DNA from: Isoetes taiwanensis
Lineage: Eukaryota; Streptophyta; Lycopodiopsida; Isoetales; Isoetaceae
Assembly: GCA_021234155.1 (NCBI GenBank)
Contig: JAJEKV010000002.1
Span: forward strand, 43,389,203-43,453,202
Direction of reading: 5' to 3'
DNA: 64,000 nt
Shown piece after piece: positions 5,346-50,959 of this stretch. Position 1 is the stretch's first letter, and the number at the start of each line of letters is the position of its first letter. Below the pieces are notes generated by a model. The model did no database searches. It saw only the letters and a list, made by a program, of their open reading frames with translations, and was not told the origin of the DNA. Made by a program: the position numbers and the translations under genes.

Positions 5346-5360
5346 CATGGAATTAATGCT

Positions 5361-5770: not shown

Positions 5771-5856
5771 AGTAGATATTTTTTTTGAAAAGTACTTGTA
5801 CATTATGAGTCCTTACAGTTTGACTCTTGTCTTAGCCAATGGAGGGCTTGTAAATG

Positions 5857-9341: not shown

Positions 9342-12300
9342 CATTATGGTACTGGAACTGTACTGGGTACCCGTGGGATGATGGAGAAAGACTAGAAGGT
9401 GCCCACGGCTGCGACATAATATGCCTAGCAGAAACATGGGAGCATAACGTCAAAAGGCTGCCAGAGGAAGAAGGATACCAACTGTTCACGTGCTGGAAAG
9501 ACAAGGATTTCAAGATAGGGAGGGGAAGTGCAGGTTTGGCCTGTTATATAAAGAATAATATAGTTAACAGTGCATGTATGTTACATTCGGATATCAATAA
9601 AAGATATATGGTCTTGAATATCCAATTGAAAAACAAACAAGAAGTATTTCTGATAGTTACATATTACCCGCCAAACAGTGATAAGCTAGAATTGCTGGAC
9701 TTAGGGGAAAATATAATGAAATGGAAAGAACAGGGACCAATGATACTAGTAGGAGACTTAAACGCCAGAACCAGACAGGAACAGGCACAAATCACACAAA
9801 TAGAGGAGAAGGATGGTCAGATAACATACACGGCAAGGGCACAGGAATGGCAGAGAGACACAGAGGATAAGGCAGAGGTCAATGCTAAAGGTGAGTTACT
9901 GCTGGAAGTTTGCACGGCAACAGGAATGATCATATCTAATGGAGTAAAGAAATGGAGGGGATCAGGGGGTTTTACAAGCCAGAATGCACATGGTAAGAGC
10001 ATAGTGGATTATGTAATCTTGAACGACCAAGCAGTAGGAAGAATAGAAGGACTAGTGCTACAGGAGTGGCCAACAGGGAAAAGGGAAAGTCACAGACCGA
10101 TCCAGTTAACAATCAGAATGGATGGGACACCACAGATTGATAGCACAGGAAGGAAGGAGGATAAGAAGGACAAAGTGAGGATCCAATTTCAGGAGAAATA
10201 CGCAGATACATTCATACACACAATTAGGGAGGAAATGGGAAAATGGGATTGGAAAAACACAATGCGAACGACAATGGAAACACCCTCAATGACATCATGC
10301 TAAGAGTAGCAACAGAGATGTTTGGGAAAAGGATCAAGACCAGAAAGAACAGGGCATTCAGAGCATCAGTATGGTATGATGAAGAGTGTAGAGAGCAAAA
10401 AACGAAAACAAAAGGACACAGAGGAAAGGAGACATACCAGAAAGAAAAGGCAGCATACATAAGATTACTAAAGAAGAAATCCAGATAATAACCTTTCAAA
10501 GACCAATGGTATATGGGAAAATTGTTGAAGAAACAGTCCCGGAGATTTTGGAGGGGACTCAAACAGAAGGGAGGGGACAACAATATGAATGCAAGGAATG
10601 AACAAGATGGTATCGGAACAGCGGGATGGGAGAATTACCTAGATAAATTGTATAAAACAGGGGCACCTCCAGTACCAATACCAATACTGCAGGATTTGGA
10701 CAAACCATGCTTCAACATGCTAGAGGTAATGATAGCCCTAAACAGGATGGCTAACCATAAAGCACCGGATCTATATGGCCTGACCGTAGAATTGCTGAAG
10801 TGTGCTGAGACAGAAATCAGCAGACAAATCACAGACATCTTCAACGGCATCATACATACAGGGCTTCCAGATAGGTGGACATACAATAGAGTCATACCTC
10901 TACATAAGGCAGGAAGCAGACAGGATCCAGGGAACTATATGACGATAATGGTGAGCTCCATTTTCGCGAAATGGTTTGGAAAAGCACTAGATAACAAATT
11001 AAAGAAATGGGCAGAAGAAGGAAACATGAGAGCACAAGGGCAAGCAGGATTCAGGCCGGAACACTCAACCACCGATCACTTGGTGACTCTTCGGTATTAA
11101 TAGAGCAGAACAAAGCACATGGAAGGAAGATCATCTGTTGTTTTGTAGATTTCAGAAAAGCATTCGACACAGTTCCGAGGGAGAAGCTATTAAAAAGATT
11201 GATAGACATGCAGACCCCGATAAACATGGATGGTTCGATTGCAAGATTATACCATAAGGTATATGCTAATATGGAACAGGAAGGACAACCGATAATCTGT
11301 GACACAGGCGTAAAACAGGGCTGCCCGTTATCTCCAACTCTGTTTGGAATATACATAGATGCTTTGCAGGGGTACATAGCAGAACAGCAAGGGGACGAAT
11401 ATGCCCCCACATTAGGAGACACGAAAGTACCAATAATGCTATACGCGGATGATCTAAGCACGATGGCCACAAAAAACAAAGGGATGCATAAACTGTTAAA
11501 AATTCTAGAATAATTCTGTGAAGAAACAGGGCTGACCGTGAATCTGGCAAAAACCAAGATAGTCATATTTGGTCATAAGAACAGACATAGACCCTTCAGA
11601 TATAAGGAAAAAGACATAGAGGAAGCAACGGAATACAGATATCTAGGGTATGATGCACATGGTACAGGGAAATGGGCCAAAGGAGCTGACGCCAGGTTCC
11701 AATCAGCTATACGGAGTTACTTCAACATGAAGAACTTTTGCAACAGAAGCAGAATAATTGACTGGGACATCAAGTGCAGTGGTAGCCACCGCCCAGCTGT
11801 ACGGGGCAGAAGCATGGGGGCCAGGCCTAGCAGACAGAAATTGGGAAAAACAGGAAGGAATTCTTAGGCAATGGCACAGACAGGAATTCAGGGTAAGGAC
11901 AAATACGCCACTAACAATCATGGTCCTCGAAACAGGGCAAAAACCAATGGAGGTGAGAGCATGGGAGAGAACCATAAGGTACCTGATCAGGGACAATGCA
12001 GGAGACATTCAAGGAAAATTGTCCAATATTGCAATTACCGAATCAGCAAAATCACACATCCTCACAGGAAGTGGATGGTTTAAAGATGTGGCAATTTGGA
12101 CCAGAGAAATGGGATTAAATTTGAGCGACCTAATTGAAGAGGGGCGGTGGAATGAGGAATGGGCAGACAGAGCCACAAGAGCGTGGCTGCAAAGACACAC
12201 AGGTCCCAAGACAGCCTGGCTCATGCAGGTTTTCAACCCAGATCAGCAAATAGGACACCAGATGTATCGGGATAACACACTGGGAGTCATGATCTAAGAA

Positions 12301-12566
12301 TCGAAAAGGACAGGTGGGGAGGGATAGACAAGGAGGACAGGATATGCAGAATCTGTGACGATGGGGAAATAGAGGATGAGAACCATATGATTAACGATTG
12401 CCTGATCTACGGAGACATCAGAGACAAGTACAGGAGTATAAGATGGGGAGAACCGGTCTACATTCTGATGACGATAACAGAATCGCTTCGGGATTTGGCA
12501 GACGCGATTCAGAGAATGTTGACAAGACATAAAGAAGTACACAGTGAAAGAGGATTCGTAATATGA
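9290..12566 (+). pseudogene. LINE-A ORF2: endonuclease / reverse transcriptase
   Basis: Target-primed reverse transcription enzyme. The N-terminal endonuclease has LWYWNCTGYPWDDGERLEG, ICLAETWEHN, LVGDLNARTRQEQ and a late SHRPIQLTI, the usual EEP layout. RT motifs follow: NHKAPDLYGLT, QAGFRPEHSTTDHL, DFRKAFDTVPREKLL, KQGCPLSPTLF and the catalytic MLYADDLS near 11440. The C-terminus has CRICDDGEIEDENHMINDC, a CCHC-like motif, and ends at TGA (12564-12566). The frame overlaps ORF1 in the -1 phase and is open back to 8768, so the true ORF2 start is unclear. Breaks include frameshifts near 10290, 11095, 11800 and 12290, TAA-TAA at about 10486, and TAA at 11511, where LINE-B has CAA (Gln). Confidence 0.88.
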
Positions 12567-12844
12567 TCCGTACAAAACGGGTCATAAAACCCCATACAAA
12601 ATGATCAGCTAAAAGATGATTGATAACGGCGCATCACTGCACGGCCATGAAGCCGAGATAAAGCGGGATGCTGATATTAAAAGAAAAAGTCAGCCTTCAG
12701 AAAAGGCTACATAATAACAGCGTGATGTGCTAGTAGCACCCTTTTAGGGAGCTCGCCCATGCTACACAAGTCCAGGGGCCTCGCGGCACAAGGGACATTA
12801 ATGTATTCTATTCTATTCATATCTGGATCCTTTGACAGATCATC

Positions 12845-13511
12845 TCAGAAATGGACATTTTTGGATTTCGGATCCATGTTCTGCTCTTGACAAAGAAGGT
12901 TAGCAAAATTGCCAAAATGAATGAAATCAGAGTTTGAAGAGGCAATTGAACGTAATTGATCGATCCAGGCAGATTTTTTAGAAGGATTGAACTTGGCGAA
13001 GTGTTGGAGAATGGCTAGATTAGATCCATTTAGGGTAATTTGGGGAGCCATAGGAAAGACATAAAGGCAGACAAAAAGATCAAGAGAAAACAACGAAGGA
13101 AAAGCAAGGAGGCAAATTTCAGTCAAAGGAAAAGGCAAAAAACAGGGGACAAGTTTTAATTGATACTTTGGTCAAGAAAAGTCAAGCCTGTTTCTAAGGG
13201 ACCGAAACCCCCAAGTCATCCAGGCCAAGATCAAAGCCAGAGCCATTAGATATCATCAATCATTCCAAGTATATCTTAACAAAGATTTTCTCTTTTGTCC
13301 CGTCACAATTCACGAAAAAGATACTAGTGGCCGAAATATTCATAAAGTCAATGAAATCTTGAAGCCAAGAATGGATGATTTCTGCCTCAAATTCTTCAGT
13401 GCTTGGCACAAATGAGTATTCGGGAGTGAAGAGGATATCTGAAAAAAAACTTTTATAGATAAGATTATTCCACAAATCAGAAAAGTAGCCCTGAAGATAA
13501 CCACAAATCAA
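12845..13511 (-). pseudogene. DUF4283-like remnant, N-terminal side of the LINE-A insertion
   Basis: Two minus-strand open stretches (12845-13138 and 13260-13511) in different frames. One reads MAPQITLNGSNLAILQHFA and GNFANLLCQEQNMDPKSK, the other EIIHSWLQDFIDFMNISATS. They stop at the LINE-A tail and fit, by strand and order, as the upstream part of the remnant at 6322-7282. I do not recognise a domain here with certainty. The link to the DUF4283-like part is inferred from position. Confidence 0.35.
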
Positions 13512-14084
13512 TCTCTGTCCCTATTTGAGTTTTGTAAAAAAAAATTATATCGATATAATGGTCAAAGGACTAGGAGAGCAAATTTGCCGGCCTTCTACAT
13601 AGCCAACAAATATAATTGACAAGTTTTTTGCTCAAGCACCAAAAAATTCACCAATTTTACCAAGTTTGAATCGAATAGGACAAACAAATCAAGAAAGAAG
13701 GTGCGCATTTTTGACGTGTCTAGAAATTAACACACAACCGTCAACATTCAACTTGCGGTACCCAACTTAGAACATGCAGATAAACAGTACCACAGTATAA
13801 TCAGCAGCTTTAGAGGCGTCCGTTCAAAATGGGCAAAACCCACAAAAATAGAAATCGAGATACACCTCATCCTTGCTTTGCCTTGCATGATCAAAGGCGC
13901 TCCAGATCCAGGAAACAATGATGTAGGATCTGATTGGAGCGCCAATTTTAATGCAGCCACTGCCAGGCACCGACATTTGCCAGAAGAGAAACAAAACGTG
14001 GCACCAAGAAGGCGATTTTGATTGGGACGCAGAAAATTTGGCAAGACCATGAACAAAAATGAAAAATTCGAGAATGCTTTATAT
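13512..14084. other. Unassigned stretch
   Basis: About 570 bases with one 102-codon minus-strand frame (13748-14056) that I do not recognise and that has no splice or start context. No repeat or RNA gene seen. Confidence 0.3.
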
Positions 14085-14559
14085 CTAACATATATATGTT
14101 CTTATAAGGATCGGCGCTATCGGACCGTCGGTGCGAGATCCTACGATCTAGGTTGCTTTGAAATATATCATACGACCCTGATCTCTTCGGAGTTTCTATG
14201 CAAATTATATGTAGTCGATCCTATAGTCCACATTGATTTGATCTTGATCGTCAATCTGAGATCCGATGGCTCAGGTTGCTTTGGGATACATCCTACAGCC
14301 CAGATGGCTTGGGAGTTTCTATATGACACATCCTATGGTCTACATTGATTTGATCCTATCCTACGGTTCAAATGGCTTGGAAGTTTATATGAAATTGATC
14401 GTATAGTCCATGTTGTTCTTGATCCTGATCGTCGATCCAAGATCCTAGGGCTCACATCGCTTTAGATATATTCTATGTGATCCTACGGTTCAGATTGATA
14501 CACATCCTTAGTCCAAGATCCTACAGCTCATGTTGCATGCTCGGCCTTTAAGGAGAGGC
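14085..14559. repeat. CCGTAGGATC repeat block, copy 3 (reverse)
   Basis: Reverse complement of the blocks at 4216 and 5446: GATCCTACGATCTAGG, GATCCGATGGCTCAGG and similar. It begins with AACATATATATGTTCTTATAAGG, the reverse of the end of block 2. Confidence 0.65.
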
Positions 14560-14640
14560 TTTTAAAAAAATTTGGTCATTGCTCCCCGAGCCCACCACTC
14601 TAAGCACTAGACCAAGCATTATTTCATTGAAAATTTTGAT
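14560..14640 (-). repeat. tRNA-derived SINE-like head, copy 3
   Basis: On the minus strand TGGTCTAGTGC (A-box-like, 14604-14614) is followed by a degenerate B box and TTTTAAAAGCC. The same flank word AATTTTGATATTTTAAATATAC, reversed, occurs with the other copies. Confidence 0.55.
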
Positions 14641-16345
14641 ATTTTAAATATACTTAAGGGTAAAGACGTAATTAAGACAAAGTAGAGTAGAATGTTCTAG
14701 AAAATTCTAGAAAGCTCTAGAATATTCTAGAAAGTTTTAGAACATAAGGGAATCTGGAGGAATCTAAGCAAATATAAGAGAATCTAGAAGGAAATTTTCT
14801 AGAAAGTTCCAAAATGTTTTAGAATATAAGAGAATCTAGAAGGAATTCTTATAGAAAGTTCCATAATGTTGTAGAAAGTTCTAGACTAAAAGGAAAATGG
14901 AATCCTTCCAAAAAGTTCCAAATTATTCTCTTAAGTTCTAGAAAGTTCTAGAATATAATGGAATCTACGAGAATATAAGGGACTTTATGGGAATGTAAAG
15001 GAATTTAAGGAAATACTTCCAAAAAGTTCAAGGATATTCTGAAAGTTTCAGAATGTTCCTAAAAGTTCTAGAATATACTGGAAAGTTCTAGAATATAAAG
15101 GAGCCTAGGAGAATCTAAGAAACTCTCATAAAATGTAAGGGAATCTAAGAAAATATCCATAAGTCTAAGGGAATCTCTTAAAATCTAGGGAAATTAAAGG
15201 AATCTTCATAAAATCTATGGGAATCTAAGGGAATCTTGATGACATCGTACGTATCTAGATGAATGTTCATAGAATCTATTTGAATTTCATATAATGTAAG
15301 GAAACCTAGGGCAATCTCATAAAATCTAAGGGAGTCTAAAGGAATCTAAAAGAATCTCAATGAATCTTGATAAAATCTTACAGAACCCAGGGGAATCTTA
15401 GAGAATCTCATAAAATCAAAGAAAATCTAAGGGAATTCATAGAATATAAGGGATCTTATAAAAGCTAAAGTAATCTAAGGGAATCTAGAGGGGTTTAACG
15501 TAATTTCCATAAAATTTTTGAAAATCTAGAAGAATTTTGATGGAATCTTAGAGAATATAAAAAAACTTTAAAAAATGTAAGAAATCTAAGGGAATCTCAT
15601 AAAATCTAAGGAAATCTAAGGGAACCAAAGGGAATCTTCAAAAAAATTTAGAGAATCTAGGGGAATCTCCATAGAATGTAAGACAATTTCATGAAATCTA
15701 AGGGAAATCTAAGGGAATTTACGGGGATCTTCTTAAGATCTTTGAGAATCTAGTGGAATCTTGACGTCGGTCCAAACTTGCATAGTAGCAACTTGTGCCG
15801 CAAGACATATATAAGTAACATGCGATGTATTCTAGATTGTTTTGGAATGTTTTAGGAAGTTCTAGATGCTCACGGACTCAATCGAAAATAAAAAGTTCTT
15901 TTGACTGGGGTGTTCTAGAATATTCTAGAAAGCTCTAGATAGTTCTGGAATGTTCTTGATTGTTCTAGATTATTGTACATAGTCGTGGATAAGCACCTAA
16001 AAATAGAATTTATTTTTTTTTTGAAAAATTGTGAAACTCAAAATAAAATGTTCTATAATGTTTAAGATAGTTTTAGAAAATTCTCTAATATTCTAGATGC
16101 GCATGGGTAAGAGCACCTCAATTGAAAAATAGAAAGTTAATCAAAAATATTGCAAAGAGCCAAATAAAATATTTTGGAATGTATGTTCCAAACGCTTATG
16201 GATAAGCACCTCAGTCTAAAAATAGAAATTTTCTTGGAACTTTGCAAAGAGCCAAAATAGAATGTTCTAGAATGTTTTACATGCTCATCAGTAAGCACAT
16301 CAGTCTAAAAATAGAAAGTTTTTCTGAAATTCAGAAAGATAGATA
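14641..16345. repeat. Repeat array, forward orientation (second large copy)
   Basis: TTCTAGAAAGTTCTAG words, then GAATCTAAGGGAATCT words, then the 90-110-base unit with GGTAAGCACCTCA. From about 15490 it is closely similar to 1611-2450. No gene is visible. Confidence 0.8.
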
Positions 16346-16530
16346 GATAGATAGATAGTATTTTAACGTCACGCCACTAGGCAGCATCCAACTGGACATG
16401 TGACCACACACCACACCACATTGCTTGGTTGGGCCCTGCCCCCAACCACTTTACATTGCGTCTGTGGGTTTTGACACCCAACAGTTCAGAGTGCGATTCT
16501 GGGCGGTCTCGAACTCGAGACCTATAGTTG
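16346..16530 (-). mobile_element. tRNA-derived SINE with (GATA)n tail, copy 2
   Basis: Minus strand: B box in GGTCTCGAGTTCGAGACC (16505-16522), a body ending GGATGCTGCCTAGTGGCGTG, then a tail of TATC repeats (16346-16370). The A-box end is missing, so the copy is 5'-truncated. It is inserted in the repeat array, whose text resumes after it. Confidence 0.6.
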
Positions 16531-16800
16531 CATCTCAATCTAAAAATAGAAACTTTATCAGACCAGAATCAGAGATGTTGCAAAGAGTAAAAATAGAATA
16601 TACTTGAATGTTTTGGATTCAAAAATATTGCAAAAAACTAAAATAGAATGCTCTTGGATGTTCTAAAATATTCCAGACATATAGATAAGCACTTCAGGAG
16701 ATGCAAATAGAATCTTGAAGAATCTCACAGAATCTCAGGAGAATCTTAAAAAATGTATAGAATCTCAGAAGAATCTTGAAGAATCTAGGCACGACAGGAA
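16531..16800. repeat. Repeat array resumes after the SINE
   Basis: Text with AAAATAGAAACTTTATCAGA continues the array and matches 2500-2990. Confidence 0.7.
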
Positions 16801-17220
16801 CTTGCACCGTAGAAACATACTAAAACTAGAAAAATGCATCGTAGGACGTACCAATGTAGTACCGTACCTCCCCTACCGTACGTGTACAGTACTATGCAAC
16901 GTACAGTACGGGGTAACATACGATGGCCTATCTAACGTACAAACGTACGTCAAAAGTTGTTGTTTAAAGTACAGCGACGGTACGTATGGTACCATAAAAT
17001 ACGTACAATACGTACATCAACCAAAAAATTATTTTTTTTTTTTTTGAAAAGTACTTGTACCGTACCTATAAAGTATATATCGTACATGTACCATACCTAT
17101 AAACTACGTACCGTACGCGTACGCAAACAACAAACCAAAAAAAAAAAATCTTATTTGATGCATAAAATGAATAAGTACGTACAGTACGTATGGGTACGGT
17201 ACCTTAAGTACTGAAAACAT
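16801..17220. repeat. GTAC-rich block, second copy
   Basis: Matches 3011-3240 (CCGTACCTCCCCTACCGTACG) and extends it with more GTAC/TACG runs and two homopolymers near 17030 and 17135. From 17221 to 17488 only short TTCTAGAA words are seen. Confidence 0.65.
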
Positions 17221-17867
17221 AACATATGCATATGTAACCTACACTGCGTAAGACGCGATCTGAGAAGTTGGATCTGGTGGCCCATCTCATCCATCCATTT
17301 GTTCACAAATATCGCACATGCATTCATGCAAAAAAGAGGTGCATTTTTCAATATAAGGGGGCCATCCACATGAGGATGGGCATTCCAATTCACGGCTAGA
17401 ATGTTCTAGAATTCTTTAGAAAGTTTCAGAATGTCCCAAATAATTCTGAAATGTTCAAAAAAGTTCAGGAGTCTACTAGATTGCTCTTAACAGGATTGCG
17501 TATTAAACGGGAGCAAATCATCGAAACGAGAGCGAAAGGAATATTCCTCAAAGATTCCCTTTTTTTTTTTACAAAAAGGGGGTAAAACGAGGTTAAAAAA
17601 AAAGATGCATGAAATTCTATTTTGACCCCCACCCAAAGTGACTATTTTTTTTGTGCAACGAAAGAATTGACTTTTTTAAAGTGTCACTTTTCTTAGCAAA
17701 TAGAATGTCCTTGAAGTATATTTTATGAGAGAAACTCTAATTTCAGAGGATAAAATATTTAACAAAACATTGAAGTAAGTCCGTAACTGAAACTGTAGTA
17801 TTCTCAAAATTTGAAGATAGAACTTCATATTCACATGCAAAATTTACAGTCTTTTTCTAAGACTCAG

Positions 17868-20800
17868 TTATGTACAAAAGTGAGGAGTGATGAGAGAGGG
17901 ATCCAGGACGTCATCATGTTCATTTATGCCATCCTCATCACCTTCACTTTTTTCACTGTCACTAGAGGAAATGCTTGAGTTATCTTCCTCATCACTATCA
18001 ACAGATGGTGAAGCATTTCCACCACCTTCTTCATCCTCTTCTTCGTAATTACAAGCTTTTTTAAAAAATTGATAGTCCTCTGGCGTAGATTTCAATTTAA
18101 AATCATAGCACAATATAGTCACGTCATTAAGGATCAGCTCATCCCTACAACCCACCTTCTTGGACTTTCTCCCTTTTCCTTGACTTCTCATTTCTAACTC
18201 ATATCTACCTTCAAAAGCATTTTCTGAGCGTGTTGCAAGCCAATGAATCTTGAGTTTAGTGACTAAGCCTTCCTCCTTGACTGTGTCAAGCACTTTTAGT
18301 ATCCAGAAAGTCGACCTTTGTCATCCTCCTTAGTTGGAAGAGCAATTAGCATACCCTTGGTAATTTCTGTGATATTACCTTGAGGCTCATTCCTGCGTCT
18401 TGGTCCGAGGTACATGACTCGATCCTCGTCTTCTTCTACTGCAGGTGCTAATGTAGCATTGCTTGGACCTGCTTGGTGCTGGGGTTGATGGAAGGTGTTA
18501 GGCCATTGAAATGGTTCTTGCAACTGTCTTAGAGCTATATTTTTCACAACAATTTTCTGTTCGAGAAAGAAATTACTCCACCACATCTGATCTTCTTCTA
18601 AGAAGTACTTAAAGCCTGAAGAAATTCCATTTTCAATGGCTTTCAAAGATGACTCTGGGGTACTTTTCTTCTGCTTGGACTCCTTAGGATTTTTGAGAGG
18701 AAGTTGCTCAGCACGTTCTATGAAGGAAGTGTCTGGAATATATTTAAGGAAGCGTAGTCCCTTTGGTGGACTCCAGTCCTTAGTTGTGGTATACTTCTTC
18801 CCCTGTAAGAAACTTTGACCATCCTTCAAGTAGAACTTGATGTGATGTTGAAAGGTGAGATCATTCAATTTGTTCACAGCTTGTTCTCTGTCTGAACGTT
18901 GAGAGAAAATAAACTCTCTAAAATCAGCAGTCTCTTTAAGAAGATCGATCACTGGAGTGGGAGTGTAAGAATCTTCAATAATTCGAACTAAAGTAGGAAG
19001 AGAGAAAGCCTTCTTCCTTCTGAGGCGCACAAAAAATCTGTTGAACATTTGGTCAATTTGATCATGAGTGTGGCCTACAAGTAAGAAACCCAGCTTCACT
19101 TTTCTAAAGATCCCTAGCTCCACTACATGGCACAGTACGCAAAGAGTGTTTGATTCTTGTTCTCCCTTGTAGTATTGTCAAGTTGCAGGTAAAGCACTGG
19201 TGGTAATTGCTCTTGCTCGCACAAGGCCTTGTTAAGAATTGTAATTGTGAGGTTCGAGTCACCATGCAAGTTTGGATACGTCAAAAATACTTTGCACTTT
19301 AGACTTCCTTTGAAGACCATAGCTCCTACAAGGTGGACCTTAACAAAACATTCCTCTGGCACATCTTTAGGAATGTTCAAGAAAATGCTTGGTAGAGTTT
19401 TTTCTGGTCCATTCCATCAATCACAACAGACATATATTGCAGTGGACGTTCAAGAGCTTTTTTTCTGTGTTTGGCAAGCTTTCTTCTCTCTGCTGCTTGT
19501 TGTTCACGATGTCTGGCAAGGTTCTATTGCACAATATCTGTAGACGAAATCAGGTCAAAGCATTTTCTTTAAAACAAGTGAGAGATTGGTGAACATGAGC
19601 TTACTTCTTTTCGACCCTGTGGTTTGCGGTTTCCGTTGACTCTTTAATTACGCACACCTTGAGCAAACGGACATTCTATGTCTCCCGGGAATTTTCACTA
19701 AACCGAATTCACTTTTCCACGATCACGGTGAAGTGTGAGTAAGAGATGTCTTTCAAGCTGAGTGCAAGTCTCTTTGTACTCATTAAAAACATCCTTTTTG
19801 GTGATGTTATCGGTTAAATGATACATGTTGTTGTTAGGGACTTCTCACATGTTTCTCTAAAATATTTCTCCATCCATGACACAAAGAAAGAAGGGCATGC
19901 ATGGTTACAACTCCTTGGTCCACAATGATGATCAATTGCTGGATTTTTGTCCAGTCTTTTGTGTATTCTAGACATTCTGGTGGACCCTAAACGGTGGACA
20001 ACCATAAAGCATTTCTGACAAACTTCTTGACGGTTAATGTAGTGCAAGAAGGTGTTGCGGTCTGGTCTTACATGATAGGCCAAGTAGGCATTCTGGTCAG
20101 CCAATGTCATTGAACTGTAGTGGTCTCTAATTGCTCGTAATTTAGCCATGTTAAATTTGTTGATGCAACCCGACGAGCAGCATTTACTTCTTAAAAGTCT
20201 TCTCATTTTATGCTCGTCCATAAGGTTTCTTCTTCTTACAGAGGAGGATGCTCTCAAACCAAAATCCACCTTGAATTTCTTGGTGGACTGGCTAGAGAAT
20301 GTGTAATCTCGTTGCACTTCGTTGGTGTCTTCATCTTCTGAAGAGAGTTCTACTCTGGGGGTGACCTCCTCTACCCTTAGTGGTGTGCTTGTAGAGGAGA
20401 ACAAACCAAGTGAAGCTGTACCCGGATAAGGCGGAGGTACAGTGATTGAATGAAGGAGATGGGCCACCATATGATGTGCCAGCGAAAGTTGTTGTAGCTT
20501 CTTCACAAGGAGTTCGTTCAAACATGTCTCTTAGAGCAGACTAAAATTCTGCAAACCCATGTGTCACCACGGTTGTGTGAAGAGGAGTAGATGTTGCAAG
20601 GTCGTGGTGGGAGAAGCTGTGGTGAATCTCGCAGTCTTCAGAACGTGCTGTATTCCTTGTTTGTGTAAGTGAAGATGGAGAAACTACAAATGGTTGAGGT
20701 AGTCTGTTTCGAAAAATTTTCTAAGGTCGAGCATTTGTAGTGTCGGGGGATGGTACATATGGTGGTGGAAGATTGCTACGTGCAACAGGTGAGGGTTGGA

Positions 20801-21029
20801 AAGGTGGTGGCAGCCGGTTTCCTACTGGACTTGGAGAGGGTTGGAAAGGTGGTGGCAGTCTACTAGTTACTGGACTCGGGGTGTCTTCGAGAAGCAACAA
20901 AGACCTTGTCGAGGTAGGTGTTGAAGAAGCGTCTCCGTCTTGTGTTCCATCTAAAGTAGAGGTACTTGGGCAAACAAATGGTGGTGGAAGTTTGTTCACG
21001 AAGCGGTTAACCATGTTAAACAACTGCAA
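17868..21029 (-). pseudogene. DUF7869-type protein, probable RNase-H-fold transposase, decayed copy
   Basis: Minus-strand pieces in order: a proline-rich repeat region (LPPPFQPSPSP, 20721-21029); a Cys-rich region (19814-20521) with LRSKCCSSGCINKFN, LAYHVRPDRNTFLH and QEVCQKCFMVV; a core (about 18296-19550) with YMSVVIDGMDQKKL, PPVLYLQLDNTTRENKNQTL, FLLVGHTHDQIDQMFNRFF; then FWILKVLD and an acidic Asp/Glu/Ser tail. DG-MDQ, LQLDN..ENKN and GHTHDQID are the hallmark motifs of DUF7869 proteins, and acidic/His residues spaced like this suggest an RNase-H-like catalytic core. An intron acceptor CTACAG lies near 19550. At least four frame breaks occur, mostly one base in a homopolymer, plus an in-frame TAG before NLARHREQQ. 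Function as transposase is inferred. Confidence 0.72.
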
Positions 21030-21409
21030 AAAATTGTGGACTTGTTACTAACTCACAAGTCGATTGGACTAATGATATTAGAGAATACAAATGCTATTCT
21101 GGAATACTAATTTGTGTGCGGCAAGATTTGTGTGGTGTGCATAAATGCTATTCGTATCTGATTTGCCCCGAAAGTGTTTGGACAAGGCGTATTCGCATCA
21201 CATAGAAAAACACAACCGACGGTGGCCTACCTTTAAAAGGAAAAATTGAGCGCCTCATTTGCATTATTCCGCTTCTGGAGATTTAGTCGCCCGGCCCGGC
21301 GCCTTCGATCTATATTGATTTGTTGTATTCGATTTACATAGCGAAAATAATGGACGGTAAGCAATTAAAGTACATAGTACGTCTTCGTGTGTGTTTCGAT
21401 TTGCTTTTC

Positions 21410-21715
21410 GTAGAATACACTTTGAAAGTGTATTCGGAATACACTTTGCTTTGGCGGAGTGCAAAGTGTATTCCAATAAGTGCAAAGTGTGTATACGGAA
21501 TACACTTTGCTGGGCAAAGTGTATTCTGGGCAAAGTGAGGAATGCGGCAGGCAAAGTGTATTCGAATCGCCCTTTGCAGCGAACTTCGTGCGAGGAAGGC
21601 AGAGCGTATCCGGAATACACTTTGCACTCCGCCAGTGAGCAAAGTGTATTAATACACTTTGCACTTAGGCAGAAGCTGAAAGTGTATTCTGGAATACACT
21701 TGGCTTATCTTCTTG
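21410..21715. repeat. Central cluster of GTGTATTCCGGAATACAC-type dyads
   Basis: About eight half or whole copies of AAAGTGTATTC and its reverse complement within 300 bases, including AAGTGTATTCGGAATACACTT-like and GTGTATTAATACAC centres. The cluster lies between the divergent genes, where a shared promoter would be expected. Isolated related sites (TATTCTGGAATA) occur at about 21095 and 21897. Confidence 0.8.
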
Positions 21716-23337
21716 AAAACACTTGTTTTTTTGCACCTAAACACACCACTTTTTAGCGGAAACAGACCACTTTTTAAGTTAAATATAGCACTTTTTTTAG
21801 TCCAATTAAGGCATAAAAAATTGTGTTGGAGCGACAATATTTAGGCTTGTTTTCCTGTTTTTTGCTGGCGTTTAGGGCACAAGATTAGTAAATCTTATTC
21901 TGGAATACAGCTTCCGTCCCATTTCCTGTCTTAACATTGTTATTTTAAACGTTTCAGTGGCAGGGAGGAAGGAAGCAAAAAAGCACCAAAGAAAACTCTG
22001 AAACTTAGGCGCCCACACCCTCAAAGAAAACAGCTGACACGGACGAGCCTGCAATATACGAAAACTTCCAAACGCAGTGGTTCGTAACCAGGGGTGCGGA
22101 CGGAAAATACAAAGACTAATCGACGTTTTTCAGACGTTGTAAAAGTCTTTGGGAACAAAAAAATGCCGACACCGAGTTCGTTAACCTCGGGACAATAAAA
22201 GAGGTCTCAGAGGTTGCCGGACAAGGAGGTCAGACGGGGAGGATATCCTTCAAAACCTCCCAAGGCTTCATTCTTGTAGATATCGCATTCTTTAGAATTG
22301 TCAGTGTGCAACCACAGACACTGTACAAATTCTTTTCTCACTACCGGACCAAACATAGCCTGTGTTCACTAATTAGACAGGTTTGTTCGAGTACAAGCGA
22401 GGACTTTTCTGTCAGTGAGTCCGAGTGTTCAGATGCAAGCAGATCAGGATCATCACCTTCTGCTAGTACTTCCGGGGGGTCATCAGATGGAGGGTCGCAA
22501 GAACAAGAAGAGGAAGTTCCCCCAGTGCCGCCAAAGAAACTTAGCAGGCCAAGAGCCACCATAGCCGCTAAGGAACCAAAAAAGCGGAAGGTACAGCAGC
22601 TTGAAGTGGCAGAAATTCTCGAAGAACAACCAAAAACGAAGAAGGAAAAGGGCAAGGCACCTGGGGTGGCCATTAAAGAAAAAAAGGTGGACAAGACCTC
22701 AGAGAGGATGGAAGAAATTAATCAGAACAAGTATGTGCAAGGTGTAATATACTTGCCAGTAACTTCCATGAGGTTGCCACCGAAGAATGCAGATGGTGAG
22801 CGCCCCCTTCAGGTTCGCAAAATCTATGCTGACCACTTAAGAAATCTGAAGGACAGAATAAGGAGCAATCCCAATGCCCATGTTGCTCCAATTGTTGTTC
22901 TTGTTGACAGATCCTAGTGCATGGACCCCAAGGACTACGACAGAGAAAAAGCAGACACCTACATGCACTATGTCCTTGGGGGAAACCACAGTTTCAAAGC
23001 AAGGAGGCAGTTGTACAAGGAGAAACACAATCCAAGATATCTCTCTGTGCTCTGCGCTGTTTACTGTGGCCTGACAGACGAAGAAGCCAAAATCGTTGCC
23101 AACACGCACAATGCTGACAATGAATATAAGCTTAAAATGAGTTTCGTGGACAAAATCAGGTTCATGCACAGGGAATATGTAATATTTAAAGAAAAATATG
23201 GAGATGATTTGAAGAAACCACAATACTCTCTGGAACTGAAAGAAGCGTGTGCTGTGTAGTGCTACGACGAGGCTAATAAACGGCAGTCTCTAATACCACA
23301 TGACAACTGGTTCCAACTAGCCTTTAGAGACGGCAGA

Positions 23338-23400
23338 GTAAGTTTTGTATTCTGGAATATACCTGCAACTTTCCCACTGACATCGCTTTTTTTTCTGCAG
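23338..23400 (+). other. Intron 1 of the ParB-methyltransferase gene
   Basis: GTAAGT at 23338 and TTTTTTCTGCAG ending at 23400. Removal keeps phase (GGCAGA joined to ATTTGGGAC). It contains TATTCTGGAATATAC, a variant of the element's dyad. Confidence 0.8.
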
Positions 23401-23711
23401 ATTTGGGACCTTCGAAACGAAATCTTCACCATGTTCGAGCGTGGTGATTTGAAAAGCAAAGGAAAGGTCTCGGAAAAGAAAAAAGGATCCGACGTCCCCA
23501 AAAAGGAAATGACTATAACTGTTTGGCGAGAAATGCAGGGCTTCACAGATATGGATATACTAGAAAGGCTACTGCAAAAGGTTGTTGATAAGGAGTTTAC
23601 ACTAGAAGAAATGTCCAAGGAGCTCCACAAGTAAGAATGCCGCTTTGGGTTTGTTGTTTGTTAGGAAGAAGTGTTTTCCTACTACACTGTGGCTCACACA
23701 CGAAAGACAAT

Positions 23712-23945
23712 GTGTATTCCGGAATACACTTTGGCCCAGTCGAAGGAGACAAAGTGTATTCCGGAATACACTTTGGCCCTCACGTAAGAGACAAAATGTC
23801 TTCCAGAATACACTTTGCCTTACAGTGTAAGGGCCGAAGTGTATTCCGGAATATACTTTGCCTTACAGTGTAAGGCCGAAGTGTATTCCGGAATACAATT
23901 TGCCTTACAGTGTGAGGGCCGAAGTGTATTCTGGAATACACTTTA
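23712..23945. repeat. 42-43-bp minisatellite, six units each with a GTGTATTCCGGAATACAC dyad, inside an intron
   Basis: Dyads begin at 23712, 23754, about 23797, 23839, 23881 and 23924. Linkers are 24-25 bases and resemble each other (TTGCCTTACAGTGTAAGGGCC). The array lies in the intron between GTAAGA (23630) and TTACAG (about 24022). Each unit could form a hairpin in RNA or bind a dimeric protein. Confidence 0.9.
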
Positions 23946-24638
23946 TGTTACTGTCTTAAAATGATTCATTCTTGTTGCTTTTTTTTTAGTTTTGCTCCTT
24001 CTAACGTTCGTACTATATTACAGCCAGAAAAATGTCATCACATGTCAAACATGCTTAATGGAGCAGTTAAATGTGCAAAGAGCTTTACCCTATAGCAACC
24101 TCGGACGACAGGATTGTCCAATATGCGCCAAATTTTGAAGGCTGGGTATGATGAATTGTTTTTCAAATCGTTGTTCTTCGTGTTACTAAGATGTTTCTTC
24201 TTGCAGAGCAAAAAGAAAAACAAGGATCTGCCGGAGGGTTTCATGCATCTGGTCAGGACAGCGCGCGAAGAGAGGACGCTGGCGGACAGACGTGTTTTGG
24301 ACACTGAGCCCTCCGATTATGAACGGTTTACAATGTACGATCAAAATAACATGTTCTGTATAGTACACGGTGACTGCACCAAACTAGCCGAATCAATAAA
24401 GCCCCAGGATTTTACCTTGGTAATTGCTGACCTTCCATATGGGTTTAAGCTGAAAGACAGCCGCTACGACGGCCAGCCATGAGTTTAATGCTTTCGTCGA
24501 CGGTATAAAGCAAATTACCACGGCAAAACATTGGAGGCTGGTTGTATTTCACTCTAGCATGCAGTCCGGCCTTGTGGAAGCCAGCTTTAAGAATCATTTT
24601 GGTTCGCCTGCGCAAGCTGGTTATGAAAATCTTGTTTG

Positions 24639-24799
24639 GTAAGCACTTATTCTGGAAAACACAAGTCCTCTTGTTTTTATTACCTTCTATTTTTTGTAGT
24701 TACAGCTGTAGCATTTTCAAATTCTTGTTAGGAGTTTCTATTCCGGAATACGTTTCTTTTGGCTGTACTTAAATCCTTTTTTAAAAAATTGTTCCTTAG
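24639..24799 (+). other. Intron of the methyltransferase part
   Basis: TG|GTAAGC at 24639 and CCTTAG|G at 24799-24800 restore W-YKTN across the junction. It contains TATTCCGGAATACG, again the dyad. Confidence 0.75.
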
Positions 24800-25755
24800 G
24801 TATAAAACAAATATTAATTACCATGGTGGAGGCCCGCGACTGCTGAGTAAGGTCGAATATCTCCATGTGGCTTATTGGAGTTTCGATGGGAAACGTACAA
24901 TGGAACACTTCAACACAGCGGCTTGCCAGAACTTTTCAAACGTGTTGGAGTTTCCAAATGTTTGCGTGAAGGCTGCAGGACCCTAGTGCACAAGGAAGAA
25001 TAGTGAATCACTACCAAAAGCCACAGAAGCTGATTAACCATCTTCTGGACATGTTTTCACGTCCAGGAGATTGGGTGCTCGACGCATTTTCTGGCTCTGG
25101 TACACCTATTGCTTGTGCACTTAAGAAGGGCCGAAATTGTGTAGCTGTTGACATTGATAAGGAGGTCGCATAGTTCATCAAGATGAGACTTTACGCCTTA
25201 CCAACTTTACCGCAGGCGAGAATCAAGAGTTGGGGGAAAGTCTAATTTCGATTTTGCTAAGATGACATCTTGGAGATGACCTCCTTTCACAAGCTCTTTG
25301 GAAGACGAAGCTACATTTGCAAAGCTTAAGGAAGTTGCTCTAGCTACAATACCTGAAGCAGCCACCAACACAGAAAAGCCTAAGTCACCAGAGAAAGGTG
25401 AAACAAAAGAGACTGATCAAGCTGAGAGCAGCAAGAAGAATGAAGAAGACTTTAATTTAGATCTCTGACGGATTTTTGTTGTGGCTACTGATTGACATCT
25501 ATTATTTATTGCCATTATTGGCCATTATTGATATAACACAAAAACAGTAATGAAATTATTATTATTATGTTTACTAAATTTGTGTTTTTTGTACATCCAC
25601 CTCTATAAAATTACGTGCTCATGTCTCAATTCTGCTATTTTCACGTAAAGAATATCCCAAAAATAGGCCCAAAAAAAACTGATACTCCTGAAACTTTAAA
25701 CCTCTCTTAAAAAAGCCTAATTTTTGAAGTGACGTGTTTTTTCTAAAGGAATCTT

Positions 25756-25788
25756 TGAAACGGGAGTGCTGCAACACTCCCGTTTAAT
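25756..25788. repeat. Right-end hairpin of the 8.3-kb element
   Basis: AAACGGGAGTG, loop CTGCAA, CACTCCCGTTT: 11-base perfect arms, immediately next to the terminal core. The left end instead has a direct repeat (AAACGGGAGC, AAACGAGAGC), so the ends are structurally different. Confidence 0.8.
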
Positions 25789-25801
25789 TTGCAACAGTGT
25801 T

Positions 25802-26545
25802 TCTTGAAAATTCTAGAATAATCCAAAAAGTTCTAGAATGTCTTAGAACATTCAAGAAAGTTCTAGAATGTTCGAATGCTCCAAAAAGTTGTAGAATCTT
25901 CTATAGAAGATTCTAGAATCCTCTAGATTTTCTAGAAATTTCTAGAATCTTCTAAAAAAACTTAGAATTCTCTAGAAAGTTCTAAAGGTTTCTAGATAGT
26001 TCTACAATGTTCTAAAAGTTATGATTTCATAAAATCTAAGGGAATCTAAAGATGTCTCATAAAATCTAAGGGAATTTAAGAAAACCTAAGGGCATTCTTA
26101 TAAAACCTAAGGGGATCTAGGGGCATCCTCATAAAACCTAAGGGAATTTAGAAAAGCCTAATAAAATCTAATGGAATCTTGAAGAATCTAGAGCACCTTT
26201 CATTGAATCTAAGGGAACCTATATAGAGTCTAACAGAATCTCATAAAATCTAAGCGTATCTTCACAAAATCTTGGAGAACCTAGAGGAATCTCATAAAAT
26301 CTAAAGGAATCAAGGAAATCTCATAAAATCTTCGAGAACTTGGGCAATCTTGATGGAATCTTGAATCTAATAGAATCTACATAGAATCTTAAGGAACCTA
26401 AAGCAATCCTAGGATAACCTTTGAAAATCTAGGAGAATCTTAAGAGAATCTTTAGAAATCTAGGAGAATCTCAAGAGAATCTTAGGGGATTCCAAAAAAA
26501 TCTATTGTACCGTAGAAACATGCAAAAACTGGAACTTGTGCCATA
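25802..26545. repeat. Repeat array, third field
   Basis: TTCTAGAA words, then GAATCTAAGG words, ending with CCGTAGAAACATGC and GGAACTTGTGCCATAGGAC, the same closing text as at about 3010 and 16810. It is the outer flank of the 8.3-kb element. Confidence 0.75.
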
Positions 26546-27858
26546 GGACATATTAAATAACTTGTTTATATATAGTGATAGAGGGACTCCAAACGTTTTA
26601 TATTTTCGTGCAATTGCCAAAATGCCCCTAGTTTTGGGGGATTTTTAACGCCTCTAGTTTTTGGGTATTTTTATCGAAATAATCGTAATTTTTTGCGATG
26701 CATTGTAGAGGAGGATGAGGTTTTCTTATCAAAGTTAATCTGAACTGAAGTCCAAAATCACAAAATGACACAAAAATTTATAAGGATTTAGAAGGGATTT
26801 AGGAGACCATAACTTAAAAACTCCGACTCTAGTTCAGGTAATCTTAACTTTTTATCCTAAGTTGATCCACATCCATTTTTTACTTAACAGATAAGTTTTC
26901 ATTCAACTCCCTATAAAGGACGTAATAATTATTATTTTAGATAATTATTACGTTCTGTCTTTTCTTTGATCCACTGCTGTTTTCACCCCTATCATAAGTT
27001 GATCTGCATCCAAAGATTTTTTACTTATCAAAGCAATCTTTATTCCAATCTTTATCACTTAAGTGTTACAATTTCTTCTCATACAAAGAAAGCAAGGAAC
27101 CGGGGCCAAAGGCAAGTGTCATGCAGGATTATTTGGTATTTTCTATGGCAGAAATCTTAGCAAGGCAGTTTCAGGTTTTGCAAGCTAAGCTCTCAAGCAA
27201 GGGAACACTTTCCAACAGAGTTACGAGACTTCTATTTGCAGTTTCATAATTCTATATTCCAATCAATCGAGAATTGAGAAAGGAAAGGAAATTATGGTTC
27301 AACACTCGAAGTGGTTTGGCAAGCACGGCTGGCTGATTTTACTATCTATATGCTTCAGTCTTCCAAAAGTCTTCATTTTCAGCAGTGTTACTTCATTATC
27401 AGGAGGGCTGTTAAAACTATGCTGACATGTATGATGATGTCATACCACTGGGTTACCACTTGCTGCTGACATCAATTATTTGCTTCACTAACTGTTAGGC
27501 GCTTTTTTCCTGTTTTAACTTTCTTTCTTCACCTGTATAGAGAGCTAGAGTTCATCAATATTCATGCCATAGCCATAAGAAGTTGCGCATAACCAATTGT
27601 GTTGAAAAAGGAACTTCAAATTCTAGTAACCAAATGCATCCAGATATGCCAATTACTCCGAGCAATATAACCAAATTATTTCCATCTTATGTACATAGAA
27701 GAAACCCATGCCTGATCTGTAGTGAAATTTATAAATGCAAGTCTCAAATAGATATAGGCACCCCTCCAATTGGGGTTTCACGCTATACAAATTCCATAGA
27801 AATATGACAGCCCTAACTTGTGTAACCCGCCCCATACGTTATACAAACGAATATGAGC
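26546..27858. other. Intergenic stretch downstream of FATB
   Basis: AT-rich, about 1.3 kb. Only short frames are seen, none recognised. One short inverted word pair (AATAATTATTATTTTAGATAATTATT) lies near 26930. The FATB 3' UTR and poly(A) site should fall in its right part on the minus strand. Confidence 0.4.
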
Positions 27859-30002
27859 TCACTTAGTATGTTTTAGCCTCCACGTTGTTTTCCCTCTGAG
27901 GATTTCTCGCCCATTGTTTTGCATCTTCAACAAATGTGTATAATGAAAAACTTCACCTGCCATAACAGTAGTAGTAATATCCCCAGATACTGCATCTAGA
28001 ATATCCCCATCTGTCATATCTGGACTGGCCAAAGATGTAATTACATCAGAAGCAGAAACCTCTCTCCTGTATTCCAGGACCATGCTCGCTAATTCAGATG
28101 CAACTAATAGTGTTTGTGGCATGCTCTGCACATGTAACACGTCAACAAATTGTAACAGCTAGCACAGCCTTCCAGTGCAAATAATATGCAACAGTGAAGA
28201 TAAGCTATTACCTCTAGGACCCAGCCTATATACTTCACGTTGTTAACATGTTCATTCATGTCCACATCATGAAGACGAGGCTGCAAAAGAAGCCAAGAAA
28301 ACTAGCATGAAACCTGTATCCAGAGCTGTTACTTTCTGGCCCAAAAGAGTTCCTAGATATTAATAGAGGCTTCTGTAGATTATTTTTCTACCGAAGTATT
28401 TTACATATTAAAATTCATTAACTTTGTCCAAGGATTACTAATGACCTTCAACTTACTGCAATATTTGGCCGAATATGTGGTGCATCATCATCAAGCTTTC
28501 TAATCTTCTCATACGAATCATCTTCAATAACACAACGCTTTAAATAGTATGGAGATATCTCTGCTTGCACATCCTCCGGTATCCTTGCGAGCCTTCTGGT
28601 ATCTTTGTTCATCATTGCCCACGTGCTGCAACACCAGTCAGCAACAGTTACTATGTAGTTAGCGCAGATTGGACCAACTGAAGGAATGTGGTCATTGTAA
28701 TGCAAAAAGCTCATAATCCATACACTCTGGCAATTAAGCATTGTTTTGATTATAATGAAGAATGCCTATGGAGCAATAAAAAATAGCATTATGACACTGA
28801 GTGTCAGAAAAACCAACTCATGGACATCCATAAAGAGAGCATAGTTCAAGACATTATATAAGGAATTAAGTATTTGTGAAACCATACCATACCTTGTAGC
28901 ACGGCATAGGACCTCACCAGTGGCATAATCCCGAACAAGAAAATCACGCGTTATAAAGTTTTTACTTCCACCGTTAATCCAGGAATCTATTTGCACAACA
29001 TCCCCCCTATTCATGGACAAGTACGGTTATATAATATAGCTGACATTCTGAAACAACGGGCCTAGATGTCCATACCAAATTGGATAATGGTCCACTTGAA
29101 TATGCATCCTAGTAACCACCCATATCAATCCATGTCGAATCATCGCATTCGTTGCCCCCATGCCATCACCCACGAAATCTGACATGCCAACATGGTTCAA
29201 TGCTGTTTCCTAAAGAAGCAACAAAAGCTATCAATTTGAAACTTACATAATAGAAAAACAGAACATATTGCATCTAGTCATCAATTGCATTGCTCAACAT
29301 AAAGCATCATAAACTTCAAAATTATAAACTTCGTCATTCGTATTACTCGCTGCCACATATTTTCTTTCTAGTTACGAACCTTAACCATGATAAAGATCCC
29401 TAGTTTGCTAACTTATCCTTGTGAAACGTCTGTAGATATTTACATACCTGAAAAAGATTTGTCAATGTCTCTATGGATGCCATCTTATCAAATCCAACCT
29501 CGTATGATCGTATAGGAAAAGTTTGTCTATAGACGAGGTCATTCTCCACCAACGTCCCTGTTCCCAAAGGATCCATCAACACGTCAATCCTTTCAGAACC
29601 ATCTTTATTATACAGAATATCTTCCAGAATCTTTTTCTGCTCAACAGCCATAATAGCCGATGCAATCAACGGAATAATATTTCCAAAACTCGTACTATCC
29701 TCTTGAAAAAGCATAGCCATGGAGCTGCTACTAATTACATCATTTTGTTTACTTCCAGGTAGTTTTGGGGCTGCTTGCATCTTGATACCATTCAGCTTCG
29801 CAACATCTCTGGCCAATTCCCGGCCACTTCTAATTCTCGGCAAACTGAGGCTAAGATTTACTCTACTTCCAGCCAAAGCATCCATACAGCACAAAAGAGA
29901 AGAAGAAATCCATGCTAACCTCAAAAAATCAGCACCAGTGGCATACAACCGCTTTGACACTCCCATAGGAGAGCTAACTCTGCCGCTAAAAAGTGAATCC
30001 AT
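27859..30002 (-). CDS. FATB: Plastid acyl-ACP thioesterase, FATB type (six exons)
   Basis: Hydrolyses acyl-ACP in the plastid stroma, ending fatty-acid synthesis and releasing mainly saturated acids. Exons: 30002-29448, 29209-29076, 29006-28893, 28625-28457, 28280-28212, 28125-27859; all introns GT-AG, phases agree, 435 residues, TGA stop. The N-terminal 60 or so residues are Ser/Arg/Leu-rich, fitting a transit peptide. The double hotdog region begins near residue 157 (VYRQTFPIRSYEVG, SIETLTNLFQ) and continues ETALNHVG, LIWVVTRMHIQVDHYPIWGD, TWAMMNKDTRRL and DVDMNEHVNNVKYIGWVLE. Catalytic Asp331, Asn333, His335 and Glu369 are in place, but the Cys that normally follows that Glu is Val370. FATB is preferred over FATA by SIETL, ETALNHV and the MMNK..RRL..IP pattern. 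The start is the first ATG of the frame; a longer frame upstream has no ATG. Confidence 0.94.
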
Positions 30003-30217
30003 AGCGAAAAACAATGCAGCCTGCCGGATTAAAACATGATCCTCTGACAGCCCATAAAATATATTTTCTCCCAAAGGACTTCACCAGTTCAAGCAATCTA
30101 GAGCTAATTCAACATATCTGACCAATTGCTGCTCCGGCACTAAATAGCTTGAAATATAAGTTGAACTAGACCTACCGGATTAAATGCGGCTTGAGATGAG
30201 ATCTAGCTGTATTTGGA

Positions 30218-31897: not shown

Positions 31898-32547
31898 TGT
31901 TGAATGTTGATCATATTATAATCAGAGTAAGTTGCCAGCAAGTTGCCAGCAAATTCCAGTGAATTGCCAGAGAAAGCAAATGATTATAAGGTTAGCAGAA
32001 TGAACTAAGCATAGTTGGTCTGTAAAGGCTATTTGACTCTAGCTAGGTCGTTTGGGTTGAAAGGAGCAGAGCCAAAATTATATTATGGTTTTCGAACCTA
32101 TTTGAGACCATAGTCCTAAGGTATGATTTTAAGGTATGTTAATGGTTTATATGGTTCAATATTTTAATGAGGTCGGTCGAATAAAGCAAGGCCACATTAT
32201 AAGATTCAAATAGCAAGCTATGGAGCGAAACCGACGTTGAGGAATTGGTGCCGATTCTCCATGGATCGGTGCCGACTGCTGAAAAATATAAGAAGGATTG
32301 ATCTGTTGTATGTTTTAGTGCGGATTCATCTAGGGATGAATGCCCGAGCTGTCGAGACTATTTGATTCATTTTCATTTCATGAGCTATAGTATTCTATTC
32401 AATAAAACTGCTACAGTAATGTTCAAAGGTTAAGTCGAGTTAGCTATTTTATTGCATATAAGAAGTAAAGTTCAATAGGCTATTTGCATTGAATAGTAGA
32501 AGATTTGAGCCCCATCATTTAGACATCATATTTCTCTAATTACAACA
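31898..32547 (+). repeat. Copia 5' LTR
   Basis: 650 bp, TGTTGAATGTTGATC to TTACAACA, preceded by GTATC and followed by the tRNA-Met primer site. Confidence 0.96.
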
Positions 32548-33553
32548 GTGGTATCAGAGCCAGGTTCAAAATGTCTAGCAGATTTGGGGCATCTCTTCTA
32601 TCTGGTATTAAAGTCTATGAAGGTGGTCCTGGTTTTCAAATATGGAAAGAGCAAATTAAAAATGTACTAGAAAATGAAAACCTATGGGATTTGATGCAGG
32701 ATTCTTATGAATCTTCAAGTGCAGTTGCAGCTAGAAAGGAGAGTAGCTCGTCTGACACAAATGCAACAGGAACAACAGTGAGCAGTGGTGGAAGTGAAAA
32801 TGCAAAGATCAAAGAGGCTTATGCAATCTTGACAAGTAAAGTTGGAGCGTCCATTTTACTCAAGGTAAGAGGGAAAGCACCTGGAGAAATTTGGAGGTAC
32901 TTACTCAAACATTTTGAAGAGAAATCATCTTCTCAAATTGATGTACTAGACAAATCACTTAGGAAACTAAGACTCAAAGATGATGATGATCTTACTAAGT
33001 TTTTTTCCAAGTTTGACAATATAATAGCAGATTTGGAAGGTGCAGGAGTGGGTTTAACTGAGCAACAGAAGTCTTACACATAGCTAGAGCTGTGGAGGGG
33101 AACAAACAGCTAGCTACATTAATTCGAAATGTAGCAAAAACTAGAGAGGCAGCTGAAGACATGATAAGAACAGCGAGCAGCATAAGGTACTGTTTGATGA
33201 TTATGATGATAATGTAGAAGTGTTGTATGCTGGCAGAGGAAAGTATAAAGGAAATAGCTCCAGCAATTTAAAAGAAAAAAGGCAGGTTGGACCTTGTTAT
33301 CATTGCAAAGAGCATGGACATCTAAAAGTAGATTGTCCTAAGTTAAGAGAAGTGGAGTGCTATAATTGTGGTGGGAAGGGCCACTTTGCAAGCAGGTGCT
33401 CCAGCAGCAAAGGAGGACGGGGAAAAGGCAACAGAGGGAGGCCAGCTTTTAGAGGTCGAGGTAAAACACATGGAAAACAGAATGCAGCAGTAAATCTGGC
33501 TGAAGAAACTGAAGAAGATTCAAGTGAAATAGATGAGGATGCTGAGGTAAGAA

Positions 33554-34230
33554 CCCGGGGGATTCACCTCTATTATAGGTATATATGCCATGTGCGTTCC
33601 TTAGGTTGCCAAAAAACCCATTGTATACGATAGTTTCATATGAAAAACCCTTTGTATACGACTACATTATTTGTAAAAGAATGCAGCCCATATCATATAA
33701 TTACTTGCCCAAAACACTTTTATTTGACAACCCCTTCCATATATATACGATATCTTCTATATTATCATAGTATCAATACTTATTATGTAAACAACATGAA
33801 GTATATTATCCGTACCAAAATGTAATGTGATTAGTATGAGTTGAAGTTGATTCAATATATTGTGAGTTTAAAAAACTATTCTATTCTATTCTATATATAA
33901 ACTCGATGTCAACTTAGTTGTTTAAAATTAAAACATAAAATTCACTATGTCTAGATGTCTTAGCTCTTCATAAGCTAGCCTATAATTAATCTTATAATGT
34001 GAAATAGATGAAGCAGCCAAAACAGTAGAAGCTCATAAAAAATGACAGACCCTTACAATATGAATACGAATCAAACACTGGAACCACCACACTCCCTCTG
34101 GTATCCTACGGCATTCAAACTATAAAAACCTTATATTTTTTGTAAGTATACGGTACCAAAGAGGCAATAAAAAACCCCATTTGGTGCACTCACATGTTTC
34201 ATACCCCATAATCTAGGTGAACCCCCCGGG
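33554..34230. mobile_element. 677-bp non-autonomous TIR element inserted in the copia element
   Basis: CCCGGGGGATTCACCT (33554-33569) and AGGTGAACCCCCCGGG (34215-34230) are 16-bp inverted ends with one mismatch. GGTAAGAA flanks both sides (33546-33553, 34231-34238), an 8-bp target duplication. The interior is AT-rich (CTATTCTATTC run near 33880) and codes nothing recognisable. An 8-bp duplication suggests hAT or another 8-bp class; the CCCGGGGG terminus is not typical of hAT, so the superfamily is open. It must be younger than the host copia copy. Confidence 0.85.
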
Positions 34231-38123: not shown

Positions 38124-38128
38124 GTATC

Positions 38129-43750: not shown

Positions 43751-43758
43751 GAGGTTCT

Positions 43759-50928: not shown

Positions 50929-50959
<31 letters not shown>

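Follow-up and report, generated by a model that had tools for sequence, protein, structure and literature searches.

A probable decayed DNA transposon of Isoetes taiwanensis that encloses DUF7869 and ParB-like DNA methyltransferase genes

A contiguous stretch of 64,000 nucleotides from the genome of the lycopod Isoetes taiwanensis (GenBank assembly GCA_021234155.1, contig JAJEKV010000002.1, positions 43,389,203 to 43,453,202; hereafter the window, to which all coordinates refer) contains a bounded element of 8,313 bp (17489-25801) around two divergent genes. One of these, on the minus strand, encodes a DUF7869 protein, and the other, located on the opposite strand within the same ends, encodes a ParB-like region followed by an N6/N4 DNA methyltransferase. 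We consider it likely that the element is a class II (cut-and-paste) DNA transposon that has decayed and in which the ParB-like methyltransferase gene is an accessory component. Directly observed are the ends with the duplication next to them, the enclosure of both genes within one boundary, the membership of their products in the DUF7869 and methyltransferase families, and the broken reading frames.

Limits and insertion site of the element

The ends of the element are ungapped terminal inverted repeats (TIRs) of 25 bp (17489-17513, plus strand; 25777-25801, minus strand) that match at 20 of 25 positions, and TCTT flanks both of them (17485-17488 and 25802-25805). The word ATTAAACGGGAG is found at 17502 on the plus strand, inverted at 25777, and nowhere else in the window. 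TTGC lies outside this word at both ends and CAAAGATTCC lies inside it (17549 and, inverted, 25748), with a third copy of CAAAGATTCC at 3853. At the right end only, the TIR core is part of a near-perfect 28-bp palindrome (hairpin, 25758-25785). A preceding interpretation of the same DNA (hereafter the sequence-only reading) placed two diverging genes in one element with this arrangement of core, outer and inner words, and both the ends and TCTT support it. The same reading left the choice of the duplication between TCTT and ACAG; TCTT fits the ends and the joint test described below, whereas ACAG was rejected as it would leave asymmetric element ends that differ by 3 bases.

The surroundings of the element are rich in repeats. 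Repeats of the TTCTAGAA type with a period of 10 bp form fields at 1600-5700, 14200-17400 and 25802-26600; their units look by eye like heat-shock elements, and the first two fields are mutually inverted in some parts and directly oriented in others. Two inverted copies resembling long interspersed nuclear elements (LINEs; 7610-12818 and 38276-43561, 87.9% identity over 5.3 kb) contain endonuclease-like and reverse-transcriptase-like frames that were named by eye. Because the repeat fields and the LINE pair yield many inverted pairs, the window is difficult for a test of element ends. When all inverted pairs with at least 20 of 25 matches and 2-15 kb apart were checked for a 4-bp duplication, 67 of 4364 had one, so that short repeats alone are unconvincing. 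We then dropped the pairs with an end in 1500-5800, 14000-17480, 25802-26600, 7600-12900 or 38200-43800, ranges of our own choice with edges just outside the element (17480 and 25802); a single pair among the 92 that remained had a duplication, namely the 17489-25801 pair.

The second line of evidence is the joint itself, for which the flanks were joined with one copy of TCTT and the 60 bases round the joint were matched to the repeat field. Of the 17 offsets compared, the one-TCTT joint (k=0) scored highest, its 20 top matches averaging 37.8 against 35.6 for the next offset. When field pieces were joined at random 300 times, k=0 came out best in 35 joins, while the margin seen at the element was reached in 2 and the score in 5; in 150 contiguous pieces of the repeat field, k=0 was best in 98. 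Judging from these results, which bear indirectly, through a reconstructed joint, on a pre-insertion site with one target copy, the element most likely inserted into the surrounding repeat field, making a 4-bp duplication.

Both tests bear on an explanation that we estimate to be very improbable, namely that two unrelated degenerate genes adjoin by chance and that coincidence also accounts for TCTT and the short inverted repeat. The TIR is indeed short and imperfect, and 66 of the 67 duplication-bearing pairs have an end that lies within a repeat field or the LINE pair, which indicates that such pairs form without an element. This explanation is hard to reconcile with the sole duplicated pair left once the repeat regions are excluded, with the separate one-TCTT joint test, and with a set of palindromes that extends over the spacer between the genes and into introns of the methyltransferase gene. 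The 18-bp core of the TIR was discarded as proof on its own, since 26 of 2986 random pairs and 337 of 3000 pairs from the repeat fields score as high. When ends of a nested element were sought that enclose only the methyltransferase gene, no candidate had at least 11 of 14 matching end positions and a 4-bp match; a nested-end search round the DUF7869 gene gave one weak candidate (11/14).

The two genes and their decay

The DUF7869 gene, a presumed transposase gene, occupies approximately 17868-21044 on the minus strand and is split among several frames, as delineated by the open pieces and the match to PF25273. In the protein joined from the pieces between 19523 and 18296, this family matches residues 69-258 of 421 (E = 1.9e-50) and is the sole Pfam family detected at E up to 1, which bears out the identification made in the sequence-only reading. 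The catalytic region (18296-19523, minus strand) contains the motifs VIDGMDQ, QLDNTTRENKN and GHTHDQID (GHTHxxID) in three different frames, and the aspartates of these motifs are spaced D-91-D-41-D in the joined protein. The frames of QLDNTTRENKN and GHTHDQID overlap where one passes into the other (19177-19123), which makes this change a frameshift and not an intron. A D-D-D layout is expected of RNase H-type transposases. Based on this layout and the context, from which we infer the role, the protein is probably an RNase H-type D-D-D transposase that would integrate with 4-bp duplications; for DUF7869, a Pfam domain of unknown function, the finding thus suggests a transposase. Six loci retrieved with ENKN...GHTH motif patterns were judged by eye, from their translated frames, to be chance matches. 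PF25273 was found in none of 14 control genomes and not in the one record searched, a result that has no bearing on the absence of the family.

The plus-strand gene (approximately 22040-25250) contains four probable GT-AG introns; that it is a single gene spanning both parts is an inference made across stops and introns. Its C-terminal part (24204-25242) is a beta-class methyltransferase domain with motif IV (ADLPYG) and the S-adenosylmethionine (AdoMet) motif LDAFSGSGT. In the protein joined from window pieces, this part matches PF01555 (N6_N4_Mtase; E = 7e-16), CcrM (6pbd; E = 1.4e-9) and phrog_67 (E = 7.5e-24). In beta-class enzymes, motif IV has the consensus [DNS]PP[YFW] and precedes the AdoMet motif. 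The order is the same here; the motif, reading DLPY and not DPPY, departs from this consensus, which is perhaps due to decay of the present copy. A search of phages with the joined protein returned 389 records at E up to 0.01, and the best 20 of these align only behind the ParB part (query 291-551).

The N-terminal part (22735-23337, plus strand; GGNHSFKARRQL) is probably ParB-like. It matches the ParB family TIGR03764 (E = 8.4e-4; 19.1 bits with a cut-off of 143.75; shorter pieces, E = 0.0058 and 0.0096) and PF20188 (DUF6551; E = 0.003-0.018). A comparison with PDB sequences produced 9 matches at E up to 10, all of them ATPase beta subunits (best E = 0.071), which we take to be chance. Scanned singly against viral contigs, the methyltransferase, DUF7869 and ParB parts had no relatives. 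Of the ParB-like methyltransferase proposed by the sequence-only reading, the methyltransferase is thus well supported, and the ParB fold is a weak match below the family cut-off.

Stops and frameshifts break up both genes, a point that the sequence-only reading missed. The plus-strand gene contains in-frame TAG codons at 22915, 23257 and 25171, its frame breaks near 24480 and 24985, and there is a further stop just before 22120 if coding begins farther upstream. Because of these stops and frame breaks, the present copy of the element is probably dead.

The two genes together raise the question of whether this is an ordinary member of the Sola superfamily, most likely Sola1, with DUF7869 as the Sola transposase, the ParB-methyltransferase as an accessory gene of the Sola1-1_Ec32 type, and little that is new except the host. 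We regard this as a close call that falls just short of even. Sola transposases have a D-D-D layout, Sola1 elements make target-site duplications of 4 bp, and a 4-bp duplication is present here. Furthermore, a published Sola1 element carries a ParB-methyltransferase gene opposite its transposase (PMC12477816). Conversely, the duplications reported for Sola2 (PMC3627910) are AT-rich (AWWT) and are not matched by TCTT, and the literature searched contains no mention of DUF7869.

Palindromes and a possible self-binding methyltransferase

Between the two genes lies a spacer (21083-21909) with many CAAAGTGTATTC half sites and many GTATTCYGGAATAC palindromes. The palindrome-rich centre noted previously is thus present, and the palindromes also continue into the introns. 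With up to 3 mismatches, GTATTCCGGAATAC occurs 12 times in the 64 kb and all 12 occurrences are within the element, compared with a mean of 0.19 and a maximum of 2 in 200 dinucleotide shuffles of the element. Three palindromes are located in the divergent spacer (21094, 21684 and 21895), one in intron 1 (23347) and two in intron 4 (24647 and 24738). The other six form a tandem array in intron 2 (23705-23944), with 42-43-bp units that contain the 26-bp palindrome CAAAGTGTATTCCGGAATACACTTTG. None of the 12 is near the element ends or in the DUF7869 gene. Coding DNA, for which the segments are approximate (5388 of 8313 bp), contains no palindrome and 1 of 26 half sites. At up to 1 mismatch, all 23 occurrences of the half site are inside the element (both palindrome arms counted).

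Because they are grouped with the methyltransferase gene and lie away from the ends, where a transposase would act, the palindromes are candidate sites of the ParB-methyltransferase. We tentatively propose, with a little less than even confidence, that the plus-strand protein serves the element as an accessory factor, binding the palindromes of its own element (GTGTATTCCGGAATACAC type) and methylating this element. Under this scheme, the ParB-like part would bind the palindromes and the CcrM-like part would methylate adenine (or cytosine at N4) within the element; either this methylation or the protein on its sites would then control the divergent promoter, label new copies or oppose silencing by the host, with the data favouring none of these. 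A more ambitious and rather improbable version is that the ParB-like methyltransferase loads the approximately 12 private palindromes as a centromere-like or operator-like array and marks the element on adenine, the whole amounting to a self-identity system of a plant transposon. If true, this would give the ParB-methyltransferases that have been proposed for algal transposons a concrete cis-site for the first time, within the literature searched.

It is also conceivable, if unlikely, that the methyltransferase is passive cargo and that the palindromes represent either a minisatellite of the introns with no relation to it or insertions of tiny hairpins, with no self-recognition involved. The concentration of 6 of the 12 palindromes in one tandem array of 42-43 bp units fits this explanation, as does the interruption of both genes, and Ectocarpus giant transposons are described as carrying many genes of unknown function (PMC12477816). 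However, a single tandem expansion does not account for the solitary palindromes at 21094, 21684, 21895, 23347, 24647 and 24738.

Several observations weigh against our interpretation of the element and its proteins. We chose the GTATTCCGGAATAC consensus by eye within the element, a choice that biases the search towards matches inside it, and the half of the palindromes that lie in one array represent few independent events. The half site CAAAGTGTATTC is less exclusive when more mismatches are allowed: at up to 2, 26 of 29 occurrences are inside the element and 3 outside, and at up to 3 it is common (46 of 112 inside). Binding of the protein to the palindromes is putative. The ParB identification is weak; an AlphaFold model of the ParB part, built without an alignment, has a predicted local distance difference test (pLDDT) score of 36.6, and tblastn of this part against plasmids and phages gave no match at E up to 1. 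With DLPY in place of DPPY, activity is uncertain even for an intact relative. The first aspartate of the presumed transposase triad (in VIDGMDQ) precedes the stretch matched by Pfam, so that the triad is our own reading. Finally, there is no second copy of the element in the window, and the CpG ratios of its two halves differ (0.48 and 0.69), which could reflect different ages.

Plant transposon silencing uses 5-methylcytosine. A plant transposon with its own bacterial-type amino-methyltransferase and private palindromes would provide a testable self-written epigenetic mark, and with the palindrome array the published speculation that such a protein binds and modifies its own element can be put to a defined assay of binding and methylation.

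Neighbouring features and known systems

Several other features of the window lie outside the element and its repeat fields. A copia-like long terminal repeat (LTR) retrotransposon (31898-38125) with a polyprotein frame of 973 aa and 653-bp direct repeats that are 99.1% identical (31898-32549 and 37473-38125) probably inserted recently. A direct repeat of approximately 3.3 kb (48015-51262 and 53228-56496; 96.4% identical, 2 kb apart) perhaps consists of very long LTRs. An exon-like frame (29400-30080) with a weak match to acyl-ACP thioesterase (E = 0.0066; 16.6 bits with a cut-off of 23.7) is probably part of a host gene. This match, the copia-like polyprotein frame and the LINE-like frames, the latter two named by eye, are in keeping with a land-plant genome. 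No Rfam family at the gathering score and no transfer RNA were found in the window.

The closest known counterpart is the Ectocarpus DNA transposon Sola1-1_Ec32 of 21.5 kb (Dinatale et al., 2025; PMC12477816), which encodes a ParB-like protein with an N4/N6 methyltransferase (1104 aa) on the strand opposite to the transposase. The authors suggest that the element is bound and modified by this protein (PMC12477816). The Isoetes element likewise has a presumed transposase gene and, on the opposite strand, an N4/N6 methyltransferase gene with a probable ParB-like region, and differs in its length (8.3 kb), plant host, DUF7869 partner and private palindrome array, the last of which is unmentioned for Sola1-1_Ec32 in the available part of that paper. 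The same source cites similar proteins with ParB-like and DNA methyltransferase parts in red-algal and green-algal transposons (Petroll et al., 2025; Iyer et al., 2011, as cited in PMC12477816), which are alike in these proteins and unlike in their hosts, and giant EnSpm elements with several accessory genes in red algae. Among the literature matches listed, PMC12477816 was the one relevant paper on ParB, and titles and the beginnings of abstracts revealed nothing relevant on a comparable land-plant element.

The methyltransferase part resembles CcrM and other beta-class N6-adenine methyltransferases (PDB 6pbd, 1g60 and 1eg2) in domain order and AdoMet motif, but differs from them in having DLPY for DPPY, a ParB-like region in front, and introns. 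The bdelloid N4CMT (Rodriguez et al., 2022; PMC8885841) is likewise a PF01555 methyltransferase of bacterial type encoded in the nucleus of a eukaryote; in contrast to the Isoetes gene, it is presented as a rotifer gene with transposons among its targets and contains a chromodomain, and ParB is not mentioned in the main text. The claim of a new element type thus stands in part: one mobile element does carry both genes, but the pairing of a transposase with a ParB-methyltransferase is of an already known kind, published for Sola1-1_Ec32 (PMC12477816). Compared with these systems, the plant host, the palindrome array and, unless DUF7869 belongs to Sola1, the DUF7869 partner may be new.

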